A stretch of DNA of 64,000 bases from Arenimonas oryziterrae DSM 21050 = YC6267 (GTDB lineage Bacteria > Pseudomonadota > Gammaproteobacteria > Xanthomonadales > Xanthomonadaceae), in contig NZ_ATVD01000005.1 of the NCBI RefSeq assembly GCF_000420545.1, forward strand, positions 1-64,000. Direction: 5' to 3'. The position numbers and the translations under genes were made by a program. Each line of letters begins with the position of its first letter. The stretch's first letter is position 1. Positions 25,700 to 59,007 of the stretch are shown here, piece by piece. The notes under the pieces are model-generated. The model was not told the origin of the DNA. It ran no database searches and worked only from the letters and a program-made list of their open reading frames with translations.

Positions 25700-25762
25700 A
25701 ACACTGAATTGACTGAAAAATATCCCGGAGCAGGCCAAGAGAGCCTGTTCGGCTTGTGGCGG

Positions 25763-25791
25763 TTGACGTACTGTGTGTCTCACAGTACTGT
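25763..25791 (+). promoter_or_regulatory. Promoter with overlapping inverted-repeat operator
   Basis: TTGACG (25763-25768) and TACTGT (25786-25791) are spaced by 17 bases, a good sigma-70 pair. A perfect inverted repeat, GTACTGTG-TGTCT-CACAGTAC (25768-25788), fills the spacer and overlaps both boxes. The half site TACTGT recurs in front of the PadR gene (28789). I infer that the PadR-type protein binds here and blocks the promoter. Confidence 0.7.
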
Positions 25792-25843
25792 GCCGACCAT
25801 GGTGACCTGGCACCCAGGCTCGCCGCCGTTCGAGGAGCCCGCC

Positions 25844-27940
25844 ATGACCACGCCCGCCACAGACCGCTTCCATGCGCTCGACGCCGCCCGCGCCTTCGCG
25901 CTGCTGCTCGGCATCGTGCTGCACGCGACGATGTCCTTCTTCCTGCCGATCCCCGCGCAGGATGTTTCGCAGAGCACGACGCTGGCGGTGAGCTTCTACG
26001 TGATCCACAGCTTCCGCATGAGCCTGTTCTTTCTCATCGCGGGATTCTTCGCACACATGGCTTTCCATCGCCGCGGTCTGCGCGCGTTCGCGAAGGACCG
26101 TGCGAAGCGCATCCTCGTGCCGATGACGGCGGGCTGGCTGGTGCTGGCGCCGATCACCGTGGCGATCCTCGTCTGGGGTCTGTCGCGCACCTTTCCGACG
26201 GCGACCGCGACCGACGCGGCGGCCGCGCCGCAGGGGTTCCCGCTGACGCATCTGTGGTTCCTGTACTACCTGTGCGTGTTCTACGTATCGGCGATCGCAC
26301 TACGGGCGGCCTTCGTCGCCGGGATCGATCGCGACGGCGCCCTGCGCGCTCGTCTGGACACCGTGCTGCGTGCGGCCTTGGCCAGCACCCTCGCACCGCT
26401 CGCCTTCGCGCTACCGCTGTTCGCGGTGTTGGCTTTCGATCCGGCCTGGCCGGTGTGGTTCGGCATCCCGACCCCCGACACCGGACTGCGTCCGCAGCTG
26501 CCCGCGCTCGCGGGATTTGGCACCGCCTTCGTGCTGGGCTGGCTCGTGCATCGGCAGACGGACCTGCTCGAGATCTGGCGTCGGCAGTGGGCGATCAATC
26601 TCGCGCTGGCCGTCGCGTTGAGCACGCTGTGCCTGGTGCTCGTCGGTCTCTTGCCGGCCGCCGACCCGACCACGATTGCCGGCGCGCCGATCAATCGCCT
26701 GGTGTATGCCTTGGCCTACACCGCGTCCGTCTGGTACTGGGTGTTCGGCCTGATCGGCGCGACGCTGCGCTTTTGCGCGAACGCGAGTCCGGCGCGTCGC
26801 TACCTGGCCGACACGTCGTACTGGTTCTATCTCGTGCACCTGCCGATCGTGTTCGGCCTGCAGGTGATCATGATGCGCTGGCCGCTGCACTGGACACTGA
26901 AATTCCCGTTGATCGTCGCGATCACGCTGGGCCTGCTGTTCGCGAGCTATCACTGGCTCGTGCGCCCGACTTTTATTGGCGAAATTCTCAACGGCCGCAA
27001 GGTCCCGCGTTATGCGCCGAAGCCATCGCCGCACGTGCTCCCGATCGAGGAAGGCACGACGGCGGTCGCGCAGCTGTTGGGCGTGACGAAACGTTTCGGT
27101 ACGACCGTCGCGCTGGACGATTTCAGTTTTTCTGCAAAGGCGGGCGAGCTCGTTGCCGTGCTGGGTCCGAACGGCGCGGGCAAGACCACGGCCCTGGGCC
27201 TGTGGCTGGGCACGCTCGAGCCCGATGCCGGCCAGGTCCGTGTGATGGGCGGCTCGCCCTTCGACGTGCACAGCCGGCTCGGCGTCGGCGTGATGATGCA
27301 GGACGTGAACCTGGCACCGATGCTCAGTGCGCGCGAACACATCGCGCTCGCCGCGAGCTACTACCGCGATCCGCTGTCCGTCGCGCAGACAGTTGCCCTG
27401 ACCGGCATCGAAGCCTTTGCGGGCAAGCGCTACGACAAACTTTCGGGCGGACAGAAGCGCCAGGTGCAGTTCGCGATCGCGATCTGCGGCCAGCCGAAAC
27501 TGCTGTTCCTCGACGAGCCCACCGTCGGACTGGATATTCCAGCGCGCGAAGCCCTGTGGCGGACGATCGCTGCATTGCGCGACGGCGGCTGCGCGATCGT
27601 GCTCACCACGCACTACCTCGAAGAAGCCGAAGTCCTGGCCGATCGGGTCGCGGTGCTCGCCGAGGGGCGATTGATCGCCGAAGGCAGCGTCGATGCGATG
27701 CGCGCCTTGATCCTGTGCAAGCGCGTGCGTGCGGCCTGCCAGGTCGATGTCGAGCAGGTCCGGCGCTGGCCGGGCGTGGTCGATGCCATGCACGACGCCG
27801 GTGTGGTGACCGTCACCGGATCGGATGCCGAAGAGATCGTGCGCCGCCTGTTCGCGGCCGATCCGGGATTGCGCCAGCTCGAAGTCAAACAAGCCAGCCT
27901 CGCCGAGGCCTTCACCGAACTGACCAAGGAGGTCGCATGA
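25844..27940 (+). CDS. Fusion of acyltransferase-3 membrane domain and ABC transporter ATPase
   Basis: 698 residues from the ATG at 25844. Residues about 8-375 form a ten-or-so-helix acyltransferase-3 domain of OpgC/MdoC type: RFHALDAARAFALLLGIVLH with the motif's R and catalytic-type H, MSLFFLIAGFFAHMAFHRRG and DTSYWFYLVHLPIVFG. After a proline-rich linker (PKPSPHVLP), residues about 405-690 form a complete ABC ATPase: Walker A GPNGAGKTT near 440, Q-loop MMQDVNL, signature LSGGQKRQ near 533, Walker B LLFLDEPTVGLD near 555 and H-loop TTHYLEEAE. The stop overlaps the start of an ABC-2 permease (ATGA). A polytopic enzyme joined to a cytoplasmic ATPase would tie acyl modification to export. The substrate is unknown. 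Confidence 0.88.
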   Translation: MTTPATDRFHALDAARAFALLLGIVLHATMSFFLPIPAQDVSQSTTLAVSFYVIHSFRMSLFFLIAGFFAHMAFHRRGLRAFAKDRAKRILVPMTAGWLVLAPITVAILVWGLSRTFPTATATDAAAAPQGFPLTHLWFLYYLCVFYVSAIALRAAFVAGIDRDGALRARLDTVLRAALASTLAPLAFALPLFAVLAFDPAWPVWFGIPTPDTGLRPQLPALAGFGTAFVLGWLVHRQTDLLEIWRRQWAINLALAVALSTLCLVLVGLLPAADPTTIAGAPINRLVYALAYTASVWYWVFGLIGATLRFCANASPARRYLADTSYWFYLVHLPIVFGLQVIMMRWPLHWTLKFPLIVAITLGLLFASYHWLVRPTFIGEILNGRKVPRYAPKPSPHVLPIEEGTTAVAQLLGVTKRFGTTVALDDFSFSAKAGELVAVLGPNGAGKTTALGLWLGTLEPDAGQVRVMGGSPFDVHSRLGVGVMMQDVNLAPMLSAREHIALAASYYRDPLSVAQTVALTGIEAFAGKRYDKLSGGQKRQVQFAIAICGQPKLLFLDEPTVGLDIPAREALWRTIAALRDGGCAIVLTTHYLEEAEVLADRVAVLAEGRLIAEGSVDAMRALILCKRVRAACQVDVEQVRRWPGVVDAMHDAGVVTVTGSDAEEIVRRLFAADPGLRQLEVKQASLAEAFTELTKEVA

Positions 27941-28755
27941 ACGCCGCCCTCGCTCCCCTTCCAGACCGCACGATGGTTGCCGATCGCGCGCCGCTGCCCT
28001 TGTCCCGCCTGCTGCGCGCCTACGTCATGGAGATGCGCTACGAAACCCTGGGTGCGCTGCGCACGCCGGGCTTCTCGATCCCCTTCGTCGCGATGCCGGT
28101 GGTGATCTATGTCTTGTTCGGCGTCGTGATCAACGGCCAGGCCGGCGATCACAGCGAGTTCGGACCGGCGATCGCGAACTACCTGTTCGCGGGCTTCTCG
28201 GTACTGGCGGCGGTGATGCCCGGCATCTTCAGCGGCGTGATCCTTGCGCAGGAACGCGATGGCCATCTGCACAAACTCAAGCGCGCGATGCCCCTGCCGC
28301 CGGGCGCGACGATCATCGCGAAAGTGGCGATGGCGATGTTCGTCGCGGCGCTGGCGGTGACCCTGGTATTCGCGGCGGCGCTGATCGCGGGCAAGATCAC
28401 GCTGACGCCGGCGCAGATCGCGATCATCGGGGCGGTGCTGATCGTCGGCACGATTCCGTTCTCCGCGATCGGCCTGCTGATCGGCTCGCTGTCCTCGGGC
28501 TCGGCCGCGCCGGCGTACGGCAACCTCGTGTTCCTGCCGATGATGTGGCTGTCGGGCCTGTTCATTCCCCTGCCCGACTCGCTCAAGACCTGGGTGATCC
28601 TCTGGCCTTCGTTCCACCTCGACCAACTCGCGCTCGGCCTGGCCGGCGTGGCGCAGTTCACCTTCATTCCACCGGCGCTCGCAGCGGGCGTGTTGGTCGG
28701 CGTGACTGTGCTGTGCGGCGGACTCGCGATGCGCCGTCTGGCCCGTGTGGGCTGA
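27937..28755 (+). CDS. ABC-2 type transporter permease
   Basis: 272 residues, start overlapping the fusion gene's stop by four bases. Six hydrophobic segments with the typical order of ABC-2 permeases (DrrB/NodJ type): an N-terminal helix after LRTPGFSIPFVAMPVVIYVL, the coupling region RERDGHLHKLKRAMPLPP-like segment (AQERDGHLHKLKRAMPLPPG), and the last three helices with PMMWLSGLFIPLP. It needs an ATPase partner, and the only candidate nearby is the C-terminal domain of the preceding protein. One permease plus one ATPase domain per polypeptide pair would assemble as a 2+2 exporter. Confidence 0.9.
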   Translation: MNAALAPLPDRTMVADRAPLPLSRLLRAYVMEMRYETLGALRTPGFSIPFVAMPVVIYVLFGVVINGQAGDHSEFGPAIANYLFAGFSVLAAVMPGIFSGVILAQERDGHLHKLKRAMPLPPGATIIAKVAMAMFVAALAVTLVFAAALIAGKITLTPAQIAIIGAVLIVGTIPFSAIGLLIGSLSSGSAAPAYGNLVFLPMMWLSGLFIPLPDSLKTWVILWPSFHLDQLALGLAGVAQFTFIPPALAAGVLVGVTVLCGGLAMRRLARVG

Positions 28756-28788: not shown

Positions 28789-28798
28789 ACAGTACTGT
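28789..28798 (+). promoter_or_regulatory. ACAGTACTGT palindrome before the PadR gene
   Basis: A perfect ten-base palindrome eight bases before the ATG of the PadR gene, made of the same half sites as the repeat at 25768 but without the spacer. It is well placed for autoregulation at the ribosome-binding region. No clear promoter boxes were seen around it. Confidence 0.5.
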
Positions 28799-28805
28799 GC
28801 ACGCC

Positions 28806-29141
28806 ATGGCTGAGGCGGATGCGTTCGCAAAACTGGAGCTCGAGCTGCGACGCGGTGTCGTCGTGCTCGCGACGCTGTCGCAGCTGCGTACGCCGCGCTA
28901 CGGCTACGAGTTGCGGCAGGCACTGGCCGAACGCGGCATGCCGATCGAAGAAGGCACGCTGTATCCGCTGCTGCGCCGCCTGGAAACGCAGGGCGTGCTC
29001 AGCAGCGAATGGAAGATCGAAGAGGGTCCGCCGCGGCGCTACTACGCGTTGAATGCCGATGGCCTGGCGCTACTCGAAAAGCTCACGGGTGCCTGGCGCG
29101 GCATGAACGGCGCCATGGACCGATTGCTGGACAAAGGCTGA
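28806..29141 (+). CDS. PadR-family transcriptional regulator
   Basis: 111 residues. VVLATLSQLRTPRYGYELRQ, EEGTLYPLLRRLETQGVLSS and PPRRYYALNADGLALLEKL are the helices, recognition helix and wing of PadR winged-helix repressors. The C-terminal helix is short, as in PadR subfamily 2 proteins that dimerise with one helix. Such regulators commonly control neighbouring multidrug or lipid ABC exporters and respond to hydrophobic compounds. Its target here is probably the operon starting at 25844. It is followed by a membrane protein gene two bases away. Confidence 0.92.
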   Translation: MAEADAFAKLELELRRGVVVLATLSQLRTPRYGYELRQALAERGMPIEEGTLYPLLRRLETQGVLSSEWKIEEGPPRRYYALNADGLALLEKLTGAWRGMNGAMDRLLDKG

Positions 29142-43116: not shown

Positions 43117-46100
43117 ATGCAAGATCCGCCACTGCCCGTCCTCAGCCTGTGGTCCGCACGACCGGACGGGCGCAAGGGCAGGTTCCCCGACACGCTCGAG
43201 TGCCTGGCGACCGTCGCCGATTCTCCGCTCGCCGCGCTCCGGCAGGCGGCGCAGCAGCGACCTGGCCGCGACGTGCTGGTCTCGCGTGCCGATGCGCAGT
43301 GGCCGGCCGATGCCTGGGTTCGCCTGGGCGCGGCCTGGCACGAAGCCGCTCATGCGACGGTGATGTCGCCGCTCGACAGCGGCCTGCTGCCGGCCCTGCC
43401 CGACGCCGACGCCGACACGATGGATGCCGCGTGCTGGGCGTATGGCGAACACGCGGCCTTCCCGGTCGATGTTCTGTCCGGCGTGGGCAGCGTGTGGCGC
43501 GCTTCGGCGGCCGCCGCGTTCGTCGCGGAAACCGCCGCAGTACCGGCCTGCCCCGACGGCGCCTATGTACTGCCCTGCCTGTGGGTCGGTCCGGCGGACG
43601 AACCCGCCGTCGACGTCGCGCACCTGGCGGTGCTCGCCCTGCGCGATCGCCTGGCAACGCTCACCGCCGCCGGTGTTCCGCGCGTCGCCCGCGATCGTCC
43701 GGTGGTGCTGCATGCCCTGCACAACTGGGGTGGCGGCATCGAACGTTTTGCGCGTGACTTCGCGCGCGCCGACGACGGCCGTCAGCACCTGCTGCTGATC
43801 GCCAGTGCGGAAACCCACCTGCCGCCGTACGGCCAGATTCTGAGCCTGTACGACGACCTCGATCAGCCGCCGCTGTGGCAATGGCAATTGGCCGCGCCGA
43901 TCGCCGACACCGAATCACATTCCCGCGAAGTCGCCGGCCTGCTCAGCCAGATCATCGCCGAATGGGGCGTGAGCGCGGTGCTGGTTTCGTCGTTGATCGG
44001 CCACAGCTTGGACCTGCTGCGCACGGGGCTGCCGACGGCGATCTGCACCCACGACGCCTACCCCTTCTGGCCGCTGCTGCATCGTTTCCCCGAAGGCGCG
44101 GCGGACGCGGTCGCCGATGCCGAACTCTCGGCGGCGATCGAAAGCAGTCAGCCACCCTTCCTGTTTCCCCATCGCGACCCGGCGCACTGGCGACGATTGC
44201 GCGACGATTTTCTGCAGGCGCTGATCGACAGCGACAGTCTGGTCGTCGCGCCGTCGCCGTCGGCGCAGCAGCGACTGCAAACCCTGATTCCCGGCCTGGC
44301 GGGTCTGCGTCGCCGCGTGATCGCGCACGGCGCCGCGCCCCTGATGGCCGTGCCGGACTGGCAGCCCGATCCGCAGCGTCCTTTGCGCGTGTTGTTGCCG
44401 GGGCATCTGTCCGGCGGCAAGGGCGAGTGGGTGCTGACGGCGCTGCTGCCCCTGCTGCCGGAGAACATCGAACTGATCCTGCTCGGCTGCGGCAATTCGG
44501 CAGCGGACCGGTTTGCAGCGAGCGGACTGGAAATCCATCCACGCTATCGGCGCGAAGAATTGCCCGCGTGGATCGCGCGCCTGCAGCCGGACATCGCGTT
44601 GCTGCCCTCGACCGTGCCGGAGACATGGAGCTACACACTGTCGGAAATGACCGCGCTCGGCATTCCCTGTGTCTGCCCGACCCTGGGCGCGCTGGCCGAT
44701 CGCGTTCGCGCGGATGGCTTCGGTTGGCTGGTCGCGCCGGAGGCGGACGCCTTCGCCGCGTGCCTGCGTGGTCTCGCCGACGATCGCGCGCAGATCGCGC
44801 AGATGCGCGCGCGTCCGCGCCCTGCACTGCGCAGTCTGGCCACGATGGCGAACGACTGGCGAGAGGCCTTCGATTTTCCCGCGCGCACCCCGCGCCTGGG
44901 GCCGGCACATCCGGGCGAACTCGCGCGCCTGGGTCCGCTGCGCAGCGCCCGTCGTCTGCAACATGACGTGCACGAGCGCGAACAACGCCTGCAGGCCCTG
45001 CACGACCAATTCGAACAACAGGCGGCAGCGATCCTGGCGCTACGCCACGAACGCGAAGCCGCTCTCGCCGCCCACCAGCAACTGCAGGACGAACGGCAGA
45101 CACTGCTCGCCGAATTCGAGGCGATCCGTGGCGAACGCGACGCGGCGCTCGCGACGAACACCCACACCCGCACGCAACGCGACGAGGCCCTCGCTGCCCT
45201 TGCCATCGCCGAGAGCCAATGTCGCGACGCGCTCGCGCAAGCCGCGGCCGCGCAGTCGCAGCACGACCTCGCGCTGATCCGGCAAAGCGAGACGGAAGCG
45301 CAGTACCTCGCGGCCCGCGCGCAGGCCGAAGCCTGCGAACAGGACGTCGCGCAACTGCGGCAAGCCCTCGCCCTCGCGGCGGCGGCTAGCGCCGAAAGCC
45401 GACACCTCGCCGAGCAGGCGCAGCAACAGCTTCAGTCGTTGCACGAACAACTGCGCGATGAGCGCACCCGCCTGGCGACGCTCAGCCAGGATCTCACGCG
45501 CTCTTACGGATTCTACGAACGCGATACGCGCGACCTTGCCCGTCAACGCGACATCGCCTTGCAGATGCGCGATGCGCTCGAAGTGCAGCTCGCCGTGTAT
45601 CGTCGCAGCCGCTCCCTGCGCGTGACCAAACCCTTGCGCGACATCGCGCGGGTCCTGCGCCGCGCGGTGGCGACGACGCAGTACCGCGTACGCAGCGTGC
45701 TGGCCTGGACCTTGCGCGGCGTACACAGCCTGCGCACGCGCGGCCTGCGCCAGACCTGGCGACGCCTGCAGCAATGGCGCGCGCCCGCGGCGATTGCCGA
45801 ACCGCTGCATCTGTCCCTGCCCGACCAGCAGGTGCCCGTCGATACCGAGCATCTGGGGTTGGCCGCGAACGCGCAGCCGCGCGCGAGCATTATCGTTCCG
45901 GTCTACAACCAGCTCGAGGTCACGCTGCGTTGTCTGGAATCGCTGGCGGCTGCCGGCGACACGACCACGTTCGAGGTCATCGTCGTCGACGATTGCTCCA
46001 GCGACGACACGCCGCAGGTGCTGCCGGGCCTGGACGGCCTGCGCTACCACCGCAATGCGCAGAACCTCGGCTTCATCGGCGCCTGCAATGCCGGCGCGGA

Positions 46101-47781
46101 ACTGGCGCGCGGCGAATTCCTGGTGTTCCTCAACAACGACACGATCGTGCAGCCCGGCTGGCTCGATGCCCTGCTCGACACCTTCGTCAGTCATCCCGAT
46201 ACCGGCCTGGCCGGCAGCAAACTGGTTTATCCCGATGGCCGTCTGCAGGAAGCGGGCGGCATCCTGTTTGCCGACGGATCGGGCTGGAACTACGGCCGTT
46301 TCGACGATCCCAGCCATCCGCGCTTCAATTTCGTGCGGGAAGTCGACTATTGCTCGGGCGCGGCGCTCGCCTTGCGTCGCGAGCTGTTCGCAGCGATCGG
46401 CGGTTTCGACACGCACTACGCGCCGGCCTATTACGAAGATGCGGACCTCGCGATGCAGGTGCGCCAGCGCGGACTGAAAGTGCGCTATCAGCCGGCCTCG
46501 ATCGTCGTGCACCTCGAAGGCATCACCTCGGGCACCGATCTCACGCAAGGCGTGAAGGCCTACCAGGTCAGCAACCAAGTGAAGTTTCTCGAACGCTGGC
46601 GGGAGGTGCTGGCCCGCTCGCATCCGCCGCGCGAATGGACGGCCGACATCACGCGCGCCGCACAACACCGCTGCCGCGGCCGCGTGCTCGTGGTCGACGC
46701 GACCACGCCGACGCCCGATCGCGACGCCGGCTCGCTGCGCATGATCGAACTCCTCGGCATCCTGGTCGAAGACGGCCTGGCCGTGGATTTCTTCGCCCAG
46801 AACCTTTCACACGACCTGCCTTACGCCCAGGCGCTACAGCAACGCGGCGTGCAGGCCTGGTGGCATCCCTGGGTTGCCGGCGTGCCCAAGTGGCTGGCCG
46901 AGTACGGTCCGGCCTTCGACCTGATCATCGTCAGCCGCCATTACGTGCTCTCGCCGCTCCTGCCCCTGCTGCGCGAATACGCGCCGCAGGCGCGCATCGT
47001 GTTCGACACGGTGGACCTGCATTTCCTGCGCGAACAACGCGAAGCGGCGCATGCCGGCGAATCGGCGATGCGCAGCAATGCCGAACTCACGCGTGTCGCC
47101 GAACTGCGCCTGGTGCGCCAGTGCGATACGACCTTCGTGGTCAGCGATACCGAAAAAGCCCTGCTCGCCGAACTCGTGCCCGAGGCGCGCGTGGACGTGG
47201 TGTCGACCATCTCGCGCGTCGTCGAGGCCACGCCGGGCTTCGTGCCGCGTGCCGACCTGGCCTTCGTCGGCGGCTACCGGCATCCGCCGAACGTCGACGC
47301 CGCGCGCTGGCTGGCCGAAGACATTTTTCCGCGACTGCGCGCGCGGCGTCCGGAACTGCGCCTGCACCTGGTTGGCGGTGATGCGCCGGATGCGGTGCGC
47401 GCGCTCGGCGAACTCGATGGCGTCGTCTTCCACGGCCATGTGCGCGATCTCGATGCCTTGCTCGACAGCATGCGCGTCAGCGTGGCACCACTGCGCTTCG
47501 GCGCGGGCGTCAAGGGCAAGATCAACCAAAGTTTGGCGCGCGGCCTGCCGGTCGTGGCGACCTCGCTCGCAGTCGAAGGCATGTATCTGCACGACGGCAT
47601 CGACGTACTCGTTGCCGACGATGCCGAAGCCATCGCCGACGCCGTGCTTCGTCTGTACGACGATGCCGCCTTGTGGCAACAGCTGCGCGCGGCAGGCTTT
47701 GAGAACACGCGCCGGCATTTCTCCCGCGACGCGGCGCGCACCGCGCTGCAACCGCTGCTGTCGAACCTGCGCCCGCGCTAG
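43117..47781 (+). CDS. Giant multi-domain glycosyltransferase (GT4 - coiled coil - GT2 - GT4)
   Basis: 1554 residues. Residues 1-190 have no recognised fold. About 195-590 are a GT-B (GT4-like) region with WGGGIERFARDFARA and later HLSGGKGEWVL and LLPSTVPETWSYTLSEMTALG. About 605-815 are a long coiled coil (ERDAALATNTHTRTQRDEAL type repeats). About 915-1150 are a GT2 domain with ASIIVPVYNQLEV, VVDDCSSDDT, LVFLNNDTIVQPGW and YYEDADLAMQ. About 1190-1554 are a second GT-B region ending in GAGVKGKINQSLARGLPVVA. Such proteins assemble surface polysaccharides or O-glycans. Its stop overlaps the convergent TPR gene by four bases. Confidence 0.9.
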   Translation: MQDPPLPVLSLWSARPDGRKGRFPDTLECLATVADSPLAALRQAAQQRPGRDVLVSRADAQWPADAWVRLGAAWHEAAHATVMSPLDSGLLPALPDADADTMDAACWAYGEHAAFPVDVLSGVGSVWRASAAAAFVAETAAVPACPDGAYVLPCLWVGPADEPAVDVAHLAVLALRDRLATLTAAGVPRVARDRPVVLHALHNWGGGIERFARDFARADDGRQHLLLIASAETHLPPYGQILSLYDDLDQPPLWQWQLAAPIADTESHSREVAGLLSQIIAEWGVSAVLVSSLIGHSLDLLRTGLPTAICTHDAYPFWPLLHRFPEGAADAVADAELSAAIESSQPPFLFPHRDPAHWRRLRDDFLQALIDSDSLVVAPSPSAQQRLQTLIPGLAGLRRRVIAHGAAPLMAVPDWQPDPQRPLRVLLPGHLSGGKGEWVLTALLPLLPENIELILLGCGNSAADRFAASGLEIHPRYRREELPAWIARLQPDIALLPSTVPETWSYTLSEMTALGIPCVCPTLGALADRVRADGFGWLVAPEADAFAACLRGLADDRAQIAQMRARPRPALRSLATMANDWREAFDFPARTPRLGPAHPGELARLGPLRSARRLQHDVHEREQRLQALHDQFEQQAAAILALRHEREAALAAHQQLQDERQTLLAEFEAIRGERDAALATNTHTRTQRDEALAALAIAESQCRDALAQAAAAQSQHDLALIRQSETEAQYLAARAQAEACEQDVAQLRQALALAAAASAESRHLAEQAQQQLQSLHEQLRDERTRLATLSQDLTRSYGFYERDTRDLARQRDIALQMRDALEVQLAVYRRSRSLRVTKPLRDIARVLRRAVATTQYRVRSVLAWTLRGVHSLRTRGLRQTWRRLQQWRAPAAIAEPLHLSLPDQQVPVDTEHLGLAANAQPRASIIVPVYNQLEVTLRCLESLAAAGDTTTFEVIVVDDCSSDDTPQVLPGLDGLRYHRNAQNLGFIGACNAGAELARGEFLVFLNNDTIVQPGWLDALLDTFVSHPDTGLAGSKLVYPDGRLQEAGGILFADGSGWNYGRFDDPSHPRFNFVREVDYCSGAALALRRELFAAIGGFDTHYAPAYYEDADLAMQVRQRGLKVRYQPASIVVHLEGITSGTDLTQGVKAYQVSNQVKFLERWREVLARSHPPREWTADITRAAQHRCRGRVLVVDATTPTPDRDAGSLRMIELLGILVEDGLAVDFFAQNLSHDLPYAQALQQRGVQAWWHPWVAGVPKWLAEYGPAFDLIIVSRHYVLSPLLPLLREYAPQARIVFDTVDLHFLREQREAAHAGESAMRSNAELTRVAELRLVRQCDTTFVVSDTEKALLAELVPEARVDVVSTISRVVEATPGFVPRADLAFVGGYRHPPNVDAARWLAEDIFPRLRARRPELRLHLVGGDAPDAVRALGELDGVVFHGHVRDLDALLDSMRVSVAPLRFGAGVKGKINQSLARGLPVVATSLAVEGMYLHDGIDVLVADDAEAIADAVLRLYDDAALWQQLRAAGFENTRRHFSRDAARTALQPLLSNLRPR

Positions 47782-56015: not shown

Positions 56016-57836
56016 ATGACGTCTCCCGCCCACGACACCCTGCGCCGCGTCTTCGGCCATCCCGGCTTCCGCGGCGAACAGGAAGCGATCGTCGGGCATG
56101 TGATCGCCGGGCAGGACTGCCTGGTGCTCATGCCAACCGGCGCCGGCAAATCGCTGTGCTACCAGGTACCGGCGCTGATCCGTCCGGGCACGGCGATCGT
56201 GGTGTCGCCGCTGATCGCGCTGATGCAGGATCAGGTGGAAACGCTCGCCCAGTTGGGCGTGAATGCCGCCTTCCTCAATTCCTCGCTCAGCGGCGAAGCC
56301 GCGGCCGAGGTCGAACGCCGCCTGCTCGCGGGCGATCTGGACCTGCTGTACGTCGCGCCCGAACGCTTGCTGATGGCGCGGTTCCTGTCCCTGCTCGACC
56401 GCATTGAGATCGCCCTGTTCGCGATCGACGAGGCGCATTGCGTCTCGCAATGGGGCCACGACTTCCGCCCCGAATACCGCGAACTGAACCTGCTGCACGA
56501 GCGCTGGCCGCAGGTGCCGCGCATCGCGCTGACCGCGACGGCCGATGCCCCGACGCGCCGCGAAATCGTCGAACGCCTGGGCCTGGACGAAGCACGCCAG
56601 TTCATCAGTTCCTTCGACCGGCCCAATATCCGCTATCGCGTCGTGCAGAAAGACAATGCGCGACGGCAGCTGCTCGATTTCCTCAAGCCCCATCGCGGCG
56701 AGGCGGGCATCGTCTACTGCCTGTCGCGACGCAAGGTCGAAGAAACCGCCACCTTCCTCGCCGAGCAGGGCATCGCCGCCCTGCCCTATCACGCGGGCAT
56801 GGACGCGGCCACGCGCGGCGCGAACCAGCGACGCTTCCTGCGCGAGGACGGCATCGTCATGGTCGCGACAATCGCGTTCGGCATGGGCATCGACAAACCC
56901 GATGTGCGTTTCGTCGCGCATCTGGACCTGCCCAAATCGCTCGAAGGCTACTACCAGGAAACCGGCCGTGCCGGCCGCGACGGCGATCCGGCCGAGGCCT
57001 GGCTCGCGTACGGGCTGGGCGACATGGTCCTGCTCAAGCAGATGATCGCGTCTTCGGACGCCGGCGAAGACCGCCAACGCCTGGAACGGCGCAAGCTCGA
57101 CACCCTGCTCGCGTATTGCGAATCCACGCAATGCCGGCGGCAGACCCTGCTGGCGAATTTCGACGAGGTCTACGACCGGCCCTGCGGCAACTGCGACAAC
57201 TGCCTGGAGCCGCCGCAGACCTGGGACGCGACGGTCGCGACGCAGAAGGCCCTGTCCTGCGTTTACCGCAGCGGTCAGCGTTTTGGCGCGATCCATCTCA
57301 TCGACATCCTGCGCGGCGTCGCCAATGAGCGCATGACCCAGTTCGGCCACGACCAGCTCAGCACCTTTGGCATCGGAGCGGACATGGACGTGCGCCAGTG
57401 GCGCGGCGTGTTCCGGCAACTCGTCGCGATGGGCGTACTCGAGGTCGATGCCGAAGGGCATGGCAGCCTGCGTCTGACCGACGCGAGCCGGCCGATCCTG
57501 CGCGGCGAACAACGCGTCGCCCTGCGCCGTGAAGCCGAACGCACGCGCAGCCGGGACCGGGCGCGCACGGCCCGTCCGGGCGCCCCTGCGCCGGTCGCGA
57601 TGTCGGCGGCGGACACGCCGGTGTTCGAAGCCCTGCGCACGCTGCGCGCGAATCTGGCGCGCGAACAGAACGTGCCCGCCTACGTGATCTTCCACGATGC
57701 GACCCTGCGCGCGATTGCGGCGCAGCGCCCGCGCGATCTCGACGAACTCGCGCTGATCAATGGCGTCGGCACCAGCAAGCTGGAACGCTATGGCGACAGT
57801 CTGCTGGCGGTTCTGCGCGAGGCGCGGGCCGCCTGA
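56016..57836 (+). CDS. recQ: ATP-dependent DNA helicase RecQ
   Basis: 606 residues from the ATG at 56016. Walker [22 protein letters not shown] box [18 protein letters not shown], aromatic-rich loop, motif [12 protein letters not shown], the RQC zinc-binding cysteines CESTQCRRQ...RPCGNCDNC, the winged helix and the C-terminal HRDC domain ([22 protein letters not shown]). Complete and standard length. 3'-5' helicase in the RecF recombination pathway and fork repair. Confidence 0.96.
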
Positions 57837-57900
57837 TATCGACCGCAGCACGGGCGGGTCGCGGTATCCTGCGCCGATCGCGTATCGTGCAAGGGAACGG

Positions 57901-59007
57901 ATGGACAGGACGGGATTCAGGCTGGCGCATCTGCCGCAACTCGATGGTCTGCGCGGCACCGCGATCCTGGCGGTAATGATCTTTCACGCCGAACCGCCGT
58001 TCCTCGCCGGCGCGTTCATCGGCGTCGACGTCTTCTTCGTTCTCAGCGGCTTCCTGATCACGTCCCTGCTCATCCACGAGTTCGATCGCACCGGCGCGAT
58101 CTCCTTGCGTACGTTCTACGTGCGGCGATTGTTCCGCCTGGGCCCGGCCCTGGTGCTGATGCTGGCGGTGTTCTGTCTCGCCAGCCTGGTGTTGCTCGAA
58201 CGCGAAGCCGCACAACGGAATCTGGTCGATGCCCTGATCTGCCTGGGCTACATGACCAACTGGGCGCGCGCCTTCGGCGTGCATGCGTCGGACTTCCTCG
58301 GACACACCTGGTCGCTGTCGATCGAGGAGCAGTTCTATGTTTTCTGGCCGCTCGTGCTGCTGGGGCTGCTGAAATTCACGCGCCACCGCGGCCAGGTCGC
58401 GCTGGCGGCGGCGGGACTGGCCGGGCTGTCGTGGTTCCTGCGCGCCGCGATGACCTGGCAGGGCGCGCCGATCGAACGCGTCTACAACGGCCTGGATACA
58501 CGTCTGGATGCGCTCATGATCGGCTGTGCGGTGGCGGCGGCACTGTCGTCGGGACAGATGGGCGCGACCGTGTCCCGCTGGACGACCCGACTGGCGCCGG
58601 TGGCCCTGCTCGGGCTGCTCGCGTTCTGCGTTGTCGGCAACTGGATGCAGCCCTGGATCTACACCTGGGGCCTATTCGCGGTGGCAGTCGGCGCGGCAAT
58701 CCTCATCGTCGACGTGGTCCTGCGTCCCGGCAGCCTGATCGGACGCGCGCTCGCGGCGCAGTGGCTCGCCTGGGTCGGCACGATTTCGTACGGACTGTAC
58801 CTGTGGCACTACCCGATCTTCCGCAGCTTGTCGGTGATGGGCTACGGCTGGCCGGCGACGCTGGCGATCGGCACACTGGCGACATTCGCCGTGTCGATGG
58901 TTTCCTACCATCTCGTCGAAAGGCCGCTGCTGCGGCGTGCGCCGGTGTCGCGCTGGGGACAGGCCGTGCCGATCGCGGACACAACGCCGGCGCCCATCGC
59001 GCCCTGA
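57901..59007 (+). CDS. Acyltransferase-3 (OafA/YrhL-type) membrane enzyme
   Basis: 368 residues, about ten transmembrane segments. LPQLDGLRGTAILAVMIFHA is the conserved start with R and the catalytic H, followed by GAFIGVDVFFVLSGFLIT, FYVRRLFRLGPALVL, HTWSLSIEEQFYVFWPLVL and YGLYLWHYPIFRSL. O-acetylase-type enzymes of this group decorate surface polysaccharide sugars at the inner membrane. It lies next to recQ and the sterol desaturase and does not belong to the fusion operon at 25844, but is a stand-alone relative of its membrane half. Confidence 0.93.
   Translation: MDRTGFRLAHLPQLDGLRGTAILAVMIFHAEPPFLAGAFIGVDVFFVLSGFLITSLLIHEFDRTGAISLRTFYVRRLFRLGPALVLMLAVFCLASLVLLEREAAQRNLVDALICLGYMTNWARAFGVHASDFLGHTWSLSIEEQFYVFWPLVLLGLLKFTRHRGQVALAAAGLAGLSWFLRAAMTWQGAPIERVYNGLDTRLDALMIGCAVAAALSSGQMGATVSRWTTRLAPVALLGLLAFCVVGNWMQPWIYTWGLFAVAVGAAILIVDVVLRPGSLIGRALAAQWLAWVGTISYGLYLWHYPIFRSLSVMGYGWPATLAIGTLATFAVSMVSYHLVERPLLRRAPVSRWGQAVPIADTTPAPIAP

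Follow-up and report, generated by a model that had tools for sequence, protein, structure and literature searches.

A conserved fusion of an acyltransferase-3 domain to an ABC ATPase, encoded with an ABC-2 permease, that may couple acylation to export

Introduction

Can the membrane enzyme that acylates a molecule and the motor that exports it be one polypeptide? This question is raised by a locus in the stretch of DNA analysed here (the window; 64,000 nucleotides, bases 1–64000 of contig 5 from a genome of 3,091,755 bases listed as 100% complete), where a first-pass annotation had described a single open frame joining an acyltransferase-3 (AT3) domain to a complete ABC ATPase. The bacterial AT3 fusions named in the available text of four sources involve SGNH and racemase domains, with other fusions occurring in eukaryotes (PMC9558356, PMC7448272, PMC12423673, PMC9833829), and the word ABC is absent from the portions of these sources open to text search. 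An AT3-ABC protein was likewise absent from the literature searched by title and beginning of abstract, a coverage that lies mostly outside subscription papers. A review of the AT3 family lists as open how these enzymes and their acceptors come together at the membrane and whether a partner protein is required by AT3 proteins that have no SGNH domain (PMC9558356). Joining AT3 to the motor of an exporter offers a natural setting in which acyl transfer could be physically coupled to the movement of a cargo, and the present unit is small, has a local operator-like site and is amenable to single-residue mutants. AT3 enzymes and ABC-2 exporters are themselves known kinds; what is new is the presence of AT3 and an ABC motor in one chain, which may constitute an acylate-and-export machine.

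The fusion gene and its partner permease

Open reading frame analysis showed a single stop-free frame on the forward strand (25709–27940) that spans both Pfam domains and includes all motor motifs, in agreement with the first-pass description (Table 1). The start given there, TTG 25763, was not retained, as a conserved promoter/operator-like element begins at that base and the true start therefore probably lies downstream. Similarity to other fusions sets in near ATG 25844, the likely start, which is preceded by an SD-like GAGGAG.

Table 1. Positions of the fusion gene, its parts and the associated genes and elements in the window.
Feature	Position	Strand	Evidence
Promoter/operator-like element, TTGACG-17-TACTGT with TACTGTG half-sites	25763–25792	+	Pattern search, conservation in genome G125
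AT3-ABC fusion gene, 698 aa	25844–27940	+	ORF, Pfam, homologue alignment
Acyltransferase-3 domain	25871–26944	+	Residues 10–367, ten helices, D13xxR16-x10-H27, R86xxR89
Linker between AT3 and ABC	26999–27064	+	About residues 386–407, length varies among fusions
ABC ATPase half with C-terminal extension	27065–27937	+	Residues 408–698, all motor motifs
ABC-2 permease, 272 aa	27937–28755	+	Start overlaps fusion stop
Second operator-like copy, just upstream of padR	28789–28799	+	Genome-wide ACAGTACTGTG search
PadR-family regulator, 111 aa	28806–29141	+	PF03551, 73.3 bits (cut-off 27)
Membrane protein with HAAS-like N-terminus, 310 aa	29144–30076	+	HAAS, 20.8 bits (below Pfam cut-off of 27)

The N-terminal half matched Acyl_transf_3 (PF01757) at 117.7 bits against a Pfam cut-off of 31, and shares this match, ten helices and the DxxR, R-X10-H and RxxR motifs with AT3 proteins such as OpgC/MdoC, OafA and NodX. 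The markers described for the family are DxxR and R/K-X10-H in helix 1 and RxxR in helix 3 (PMC7448272, PMC12423673), and the corresponding D13, R16, H27, R86 and R89 were invariant across five aligned fusions. Against the MdoC/OpgC equivalog NF003014 this half scored 124.8 bits, below the cut-off of 338. Hydropathy analysis of the window protein gave ten segments with the N- and C-terminus inside; three homologues analysed in this way gave less regular counts. Together with positive charge on alternate loops, the ten helices place the C-terminus, and with it the ATPase half, in the cytoplasm, which is the predicted location that an ABC motor needs. Neither an SGNH nor a racemase domain was matched in the fusion by Pfam, and the hydropathy profile gave no eleventh helix of the AT3-SGNH type. 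In contrast to AT3-SGNH and AT3-racemase (VanT) fusions, the C-terminal partner here is a cytoplasmic ABC ATPase.

The C-terminal half matched ABC_tran (PF00005) over residues 424–560 at 92.5 bits (Pfam cut-off 25), and its Walker A, Q-loop, LSGGQ signature, Walker B and H-loop were invariant in the five aligned fusions. The best family model was DrrA (TIGR01188), although its 179.5 bits fall below the cut-off of 312.45, as do the 151.8 bits against NodI (NF010060; cut-off 521); the DrrB score was likewise below its cut-off. When the fusion was searched against solved structures, only ABC halves were among the matches listed, and one of these chains, the efflux ATPase Rv1218c of mycobacteria, aligned over fusion residues 410–690. 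AlphaFold, given an alignment of six rows, produced a weak model of the fusion (pLDDT 59.9, pTM 0.43), and its best 50 PDB matches were ABC proteins that superposed poorly.

The adjacent gene product matched PF01061 at 49.3 bits (Pfam cut-off 26.9), Pfam found no ATPase family within it, and its ATG overlaps the TGA of the fusion in the ATGA at 27937–27940, which upholds the earlier description of an ATPase-less ABC-2 permease overlapping by four bases. Its hydropathy count was seven helices, where six are expected for an ABC-2 permease, and the solved-structure search with the permease gave nothing among the matches listed.

Pairwise comparison of the window fusion with that of genome G125 gave dN/dS values of 0.25/0.69 for the whole gene, 0.248/0.615 (i.e. 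0.40) for the AT3 half, 0.204/0.767 for the ATPase core, 0.342/0.899 for its C-terminal part and 0.542/0.613 for the 16 codons compared in the linker. These values indicate that both halves are under purifying selection, with their motifs kept.

Distribution of the fusion

A profile search (profile A1, made from five full-length fusions) in which the best two candidates per genome were scored identified an intact full-length fusion in at least 9 of 395 genomes of the window's family, these being the window's own genome, G125, G157, G350, G144, G519, G550, G542 and G458, the last with a single 745-aa frame that had been reported in two pieces. A tenth fusion, in the single-contig assembly G576 (listed as 57% complete), is frameshifted, and the ten are spread over five genera. 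The five fusions of the profile came from an earlier search of the order with the window protein as single query and the same scoring of two candidates per genome, which gave a full-length match in at least 5 of 397 genomes, the window's own included. The first four aligned homologues, all from other genera, were 67, 50, 49 and 51% identical to the window protein, so the conserved full-length homologues that the first-pass annotation had proposed to look for do exist. In all ten loci (nine intact and the frameshifted G576) the permease gene directly follows the fusion. The recurrence of the same fusion with the same permease partner in several genera argues that the fusion is real, and the sequences bear out the earlier view of a motor covalently tied to an acyl-modifying enzyme as a genuine, conserved AT3-ABC fusion. 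The fusion is also old.

Beyond these carriers, 26 congeners gave no full-length match with up to 18 best candidates scored per genome, and only the window's own full-length match was obtained from a class sample (369 genomes, 1e-100) and a phylum sample (349 genomes, 1e-85) with the best three candidates scored per genome, the two samples overlapping each other and the earlier genome sets. Since few best candidates were scored per genome, among the matches listed, divergent fusions can be missed by these counts. Matches were obtained in 344 of 72,556 plasmid records (1e-30) and 908 of 50,697 phage records (1e-5), none of them covering 80% of the query, and a viral-contig scan gave no match. 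A scan of 84,980 species genomes for short exact peptide patterns, which is a weak test, returned four loci, one with an AT3 gene after a separate ABC-permease pair (L080), one with AT3 (L081) and two with ABC only. The first of these (L080:6001-9121) belongs to a Hyphomicrobiales MAG, where the AT3 gene comes after genes for an ABC ATPase and for a permease of another kind. No hidden AT3 fusion was detected at E 0.001 in six ATPase loci (L159–L164) that have long open frames. A role in anti-phage defence was considered and rejected, the PADLOC matches being confined to the ATPase half.

Origin and gene neighbourhoods

Phylogenetic analysis by a quick method, restricted to matches above a score or length limit and excluding G576, placed the ATPase halves of the nine intact fusions in one clade against 72 unfused ATPases (SH-aLRT 100) and their permeases in one clade against 71 unfused permeases (SH-aLRT 99). 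Both trees contained the same two subgroups, one formed by the window, G125 and G458 and the other by the remaining six. The ATPase therefore appears to pair with the neighbouring permease that was co-inherited with it and not with an unrelated one, a point on which the first-pass annotation had left room for doubt. The AT3 trees gave a less uniform picture. In a tree of 26 rows the fused AT3 domains did not form one clade, and a single clade was weakly rejected (AU p 0.030); once five rows had been dropped (three long branches, one near-copy and one of odd composition) they formed one clade at 80/93. When five AT3 genes from related operons (see below) were added and one further row was dropped, the best tree again lacked a single fusion clade, with which the data were nevertheless compatible (p 0.419, no rejection). 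Because the AT3 trees are ambiguous, the case for a single origin rests on the ATPase and permease trees, and a single origin is the simplest reading of the sequences, short of proof.

Operon gene mapping showed that 8 of the 10 fusions are preceded by genes for a GntR regulator and for another ATPase with its own ABC-2 permease, the families of this cassette having been checked for G350. The window and G125 lack the cassette and have PadR and HAAS-like genes after the permease instead; the best relative of the cassette ATPase in the window's genome is 35% identical. As the cassette accompanies both G458 and the group of six, it was probably ancestral. Six regions were examined that had been chosen for AT3 or cassette matches, and in five of them (L153, L154, L156 and L157 in the window's genus, L155 in another) a similar GntR-ABC-permease cassette is followed by a separate AT3 gene of about 370–390 residues. 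The sixth, in the window's genome, holds a distant GntR-ABC pair without AT3. The five operon AT3 proteins form a clade of their own, and this gene order indicates that AT3 and ABC genes are partners in operons without fusion as well, so that the fusion is not the sole case of an AT3 enzyme linked to an ABC transporter.

The halves are also found apart. In all 14 loci of unfused ATPase-permease relatives viewed with wide flanks, which include one from the window's genome, a histidine kinase and a response regulator were present and an AT3 match was absent. None of eight loci with other stand-alone AT3 genes, of the kind nearest to the fused domain, had such a transporter adjoining. The unfused pair of the window's genome (L070:2327-7635) lies beside an amidohydrolase-family protein in addition to the kinase and regulator.

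Putative regulatory genes and operator-like elements

The element ahead of the fusion contains TACTGTG half-sites arranged as one inverted repeat plus a third half-site. A search of the window's whole genome for ACAGTACTGTG gave two sites and no others, one ahead of the fusion (25781-25792), where an overlapping palindrome puts it on both strands, and one ahead of padR; the chance expectation for the window is 0, and the reversed control pattern had one match in the genome. In G125, TTGACGTACTGTGTG...CACAGTACTGTGC is retained upstream of the fusion and CAGTACTGTGCACGTCATGG is found upstream of padR. We read TTGACG-17-TACTGT as a likely promoter and the TACTGTG repeats as a putative PadR operator, although a consensus promoter scan did not have the element among its predictions. 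At both sites TACTGT lies seven bases ahead of an ATG (25786-25799 with ATG 25799, and 28793-28806 with the padR start at 28806), a spacing that would fit leaderless transcripts.

PadR is 87% identical in G125, and the HAAS-like proteins of both genomes carry a GxP-like G-R-P motif. The G125 copy had no family match at E 0.001. The order of PadR followed immediately by a membrane protein with a HAAS-like N-terminus and a GxP-like motif resembles that of the HAAS-PadR dyad, in which a HAAS domain protein is encoded next to a stand-alone PadR and whose pairs are proposed to be membrane-stress switches (PMC11237479); here the putative dyad is attached to an AT3-ABC exporter, and because the HAAS match is below the Pfam cut-off this part is only a lead. 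The available portions of the HpaR1 literature held nothing bearing on the fusion operon.

Proposed mechanism and alternatives

The reading that we prefer, and to which we would give an even chance, is that the unit is a stress-regulated ABC-2 exporter that acylates a lipid- or sugar-linked cargo on its exit. The unit would comprise the AT3-ABC fusion, the permease, PadR and the HAAS-like protein, with the motor subunit carrying its own acyltransferase. The complex would contain two copies each of the fusion chain and the permease. Powered by ATP hydrolysis in the fused ATPase, the permease would carry an amphiphilic cargo through the inner membrane, a molecule most likely linked to a lipid or a sugar. 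The AT3 domain, kept beside the permease by the linker, would pass an acyl group from cytoplasmic acyl-CoA to the cargo on the outer side, and a published model of AT3 proteins has acyl-CoA taken up on the cytoplasmic face and the acyl group offered on the outer one (PMC9833829). By binding the TACTGTG repeats, PadR would keep the unit repressed, and a membrane signal relayed by the HAAS-like protein would lift the repression. Enzyme, motor and permease are identified from sequence, which also shows the fusion with its motifs and conservation, the co-inherited permease and the conserved local operator-like site; we infer the complex, the direction of transport, the cargo, its sharing by both activities and the repression.

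Export with acylation is favoured by the intact fusions in at least nine genomes over five genera with the permease in 10 of 10 loci, by the single ATPase and permease clades with matching subgroups, by the invariant catalytic residues of both halves and the constraint seen in dN/dS, by the ten helices that place the ATPase in the cytoplasm, and by the separate AT3 gene adjoining an ABC-permease pair in five relatives. Regulation by stress is suggested by HAAS-PadR pairs, proposed to be membrane-stress switches (PMC11237479), and by the response to envelope stress of GntR-type regulators of ABC operons, B. subtilis YtrA among them (PMC12772383, PMC8060467). Against this reading count the nearest unfused ATPase-permease pairs, which work without AT3 in all 14 loci, the sub-threshold HAAS match, the ambiguous AT3 trees, the weak structure model, the rarity of the fusion (at least 9 of the 395 genomes of the family) and the absence from the unit of any cargo gene or biosynthetic pathway.

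Known exporters offer partial parallels. Adjacent ATPase and permease genes are common to DrrAB/NodIJ-type ABC-2 exporters and the present unit, for which DrrA is the best family match; there they form a two-gene system, whereas here the ATPase has an N-terminal AT3 domain and scores below the family cut-offs. NodIJ exports Nod factor. Its acetylation is carried out by the AT3 protein NodX (PMC9558356), and NodX with NodIJ would be a functional parallel, since a single secreted lipid-linked sugar is served there by both an AT3 enzyme and an ABC-2 exporter, although NodX and NodIJ are separate proteins and AT3 and motor are one chain here.

A bolder proposal, which we hold tentatively and rate a little short of an even chance, is that the motor chain is itself the acyl-CoA channel, so that one complex would spend ATP, move a glycolipid-like cargo out and decorate it in the same step. 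An AT3 gene would have joined a DrrA-like ATPase once, in one bacterial family, and one branch would later have exchanged the GntR-ABC-permease cassette for the PadR/HAAS switch.

The fusion could instead be a tether for joint expression and placement only, the exporter extruding a toxic or signalling compound and AT3 separately modifying an envelope glycan under the same stress with no shared cargo. Each half can work alone, as the 8 of 8 stand-alone AT3 loci and 14 of 14 unfused pairs indicate, but retention of the fusion in five genera and the AT3 gene after an ABC-permease pair in five further operons speak against mere tethering, which we consider unlikely. Quite unlikely, in our view, is a scheme of ATP-gated acylation without export, in which the ABC-permease part would sense or pull a membrane lipid carrier and gate AT3, by analogy with the Ytr transporter, which acts on the lipid II cycle and not as a plain pump. 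It is on this cycle that the ytr operon of B. subtilis acts (PMC12772383), and a like cassette, putatively of this kind, stands before 8 of 10 fusions and five separate AT3 genes. However, it is missing beside the fusions of the window and G125, its GntR is only a putative member of the YtrA subfamily, and by its family scores the ATPase is closer to exporters (DrrA, NodI). An efflux pump of the multidrug type, whose AT3 half would be a structural anchor in the membrane with little or no enzyme activity, would account for DrrA as the best ATPase model and for the Rv1218c alignment, yet the invariant AT3 catalytic residues in five fusions and the AT3 dN/dS of 0.40 between the window and G125 make this very improbable. 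Finally, a lost stop or sequencing error joining two neighbouring genes in this assembly, an outcome the first-pass annotation had considered, could point to unfused relatives of each half (the window's genome included) and to the 0 of 26 congeners with a full-length fusion, but is refuted by the eight further intact fusions in other genomes and retains practically no probability.

Two further genes of the window are recorded here. A second, stand-alone AT3 gene lies on the forward strand at 57760-59007 (PF01757, 106.9 bits), there being five AT3 matches in total in the window's genome. About 13 kb past the unit, also on the forward strand, a frame of 1554 aa (43117-47781) contains group 1 and family 2 glycosyltransferase domains, and its product is predicted from these to be a multi-glycosyltransferase of the surface glycan kind.
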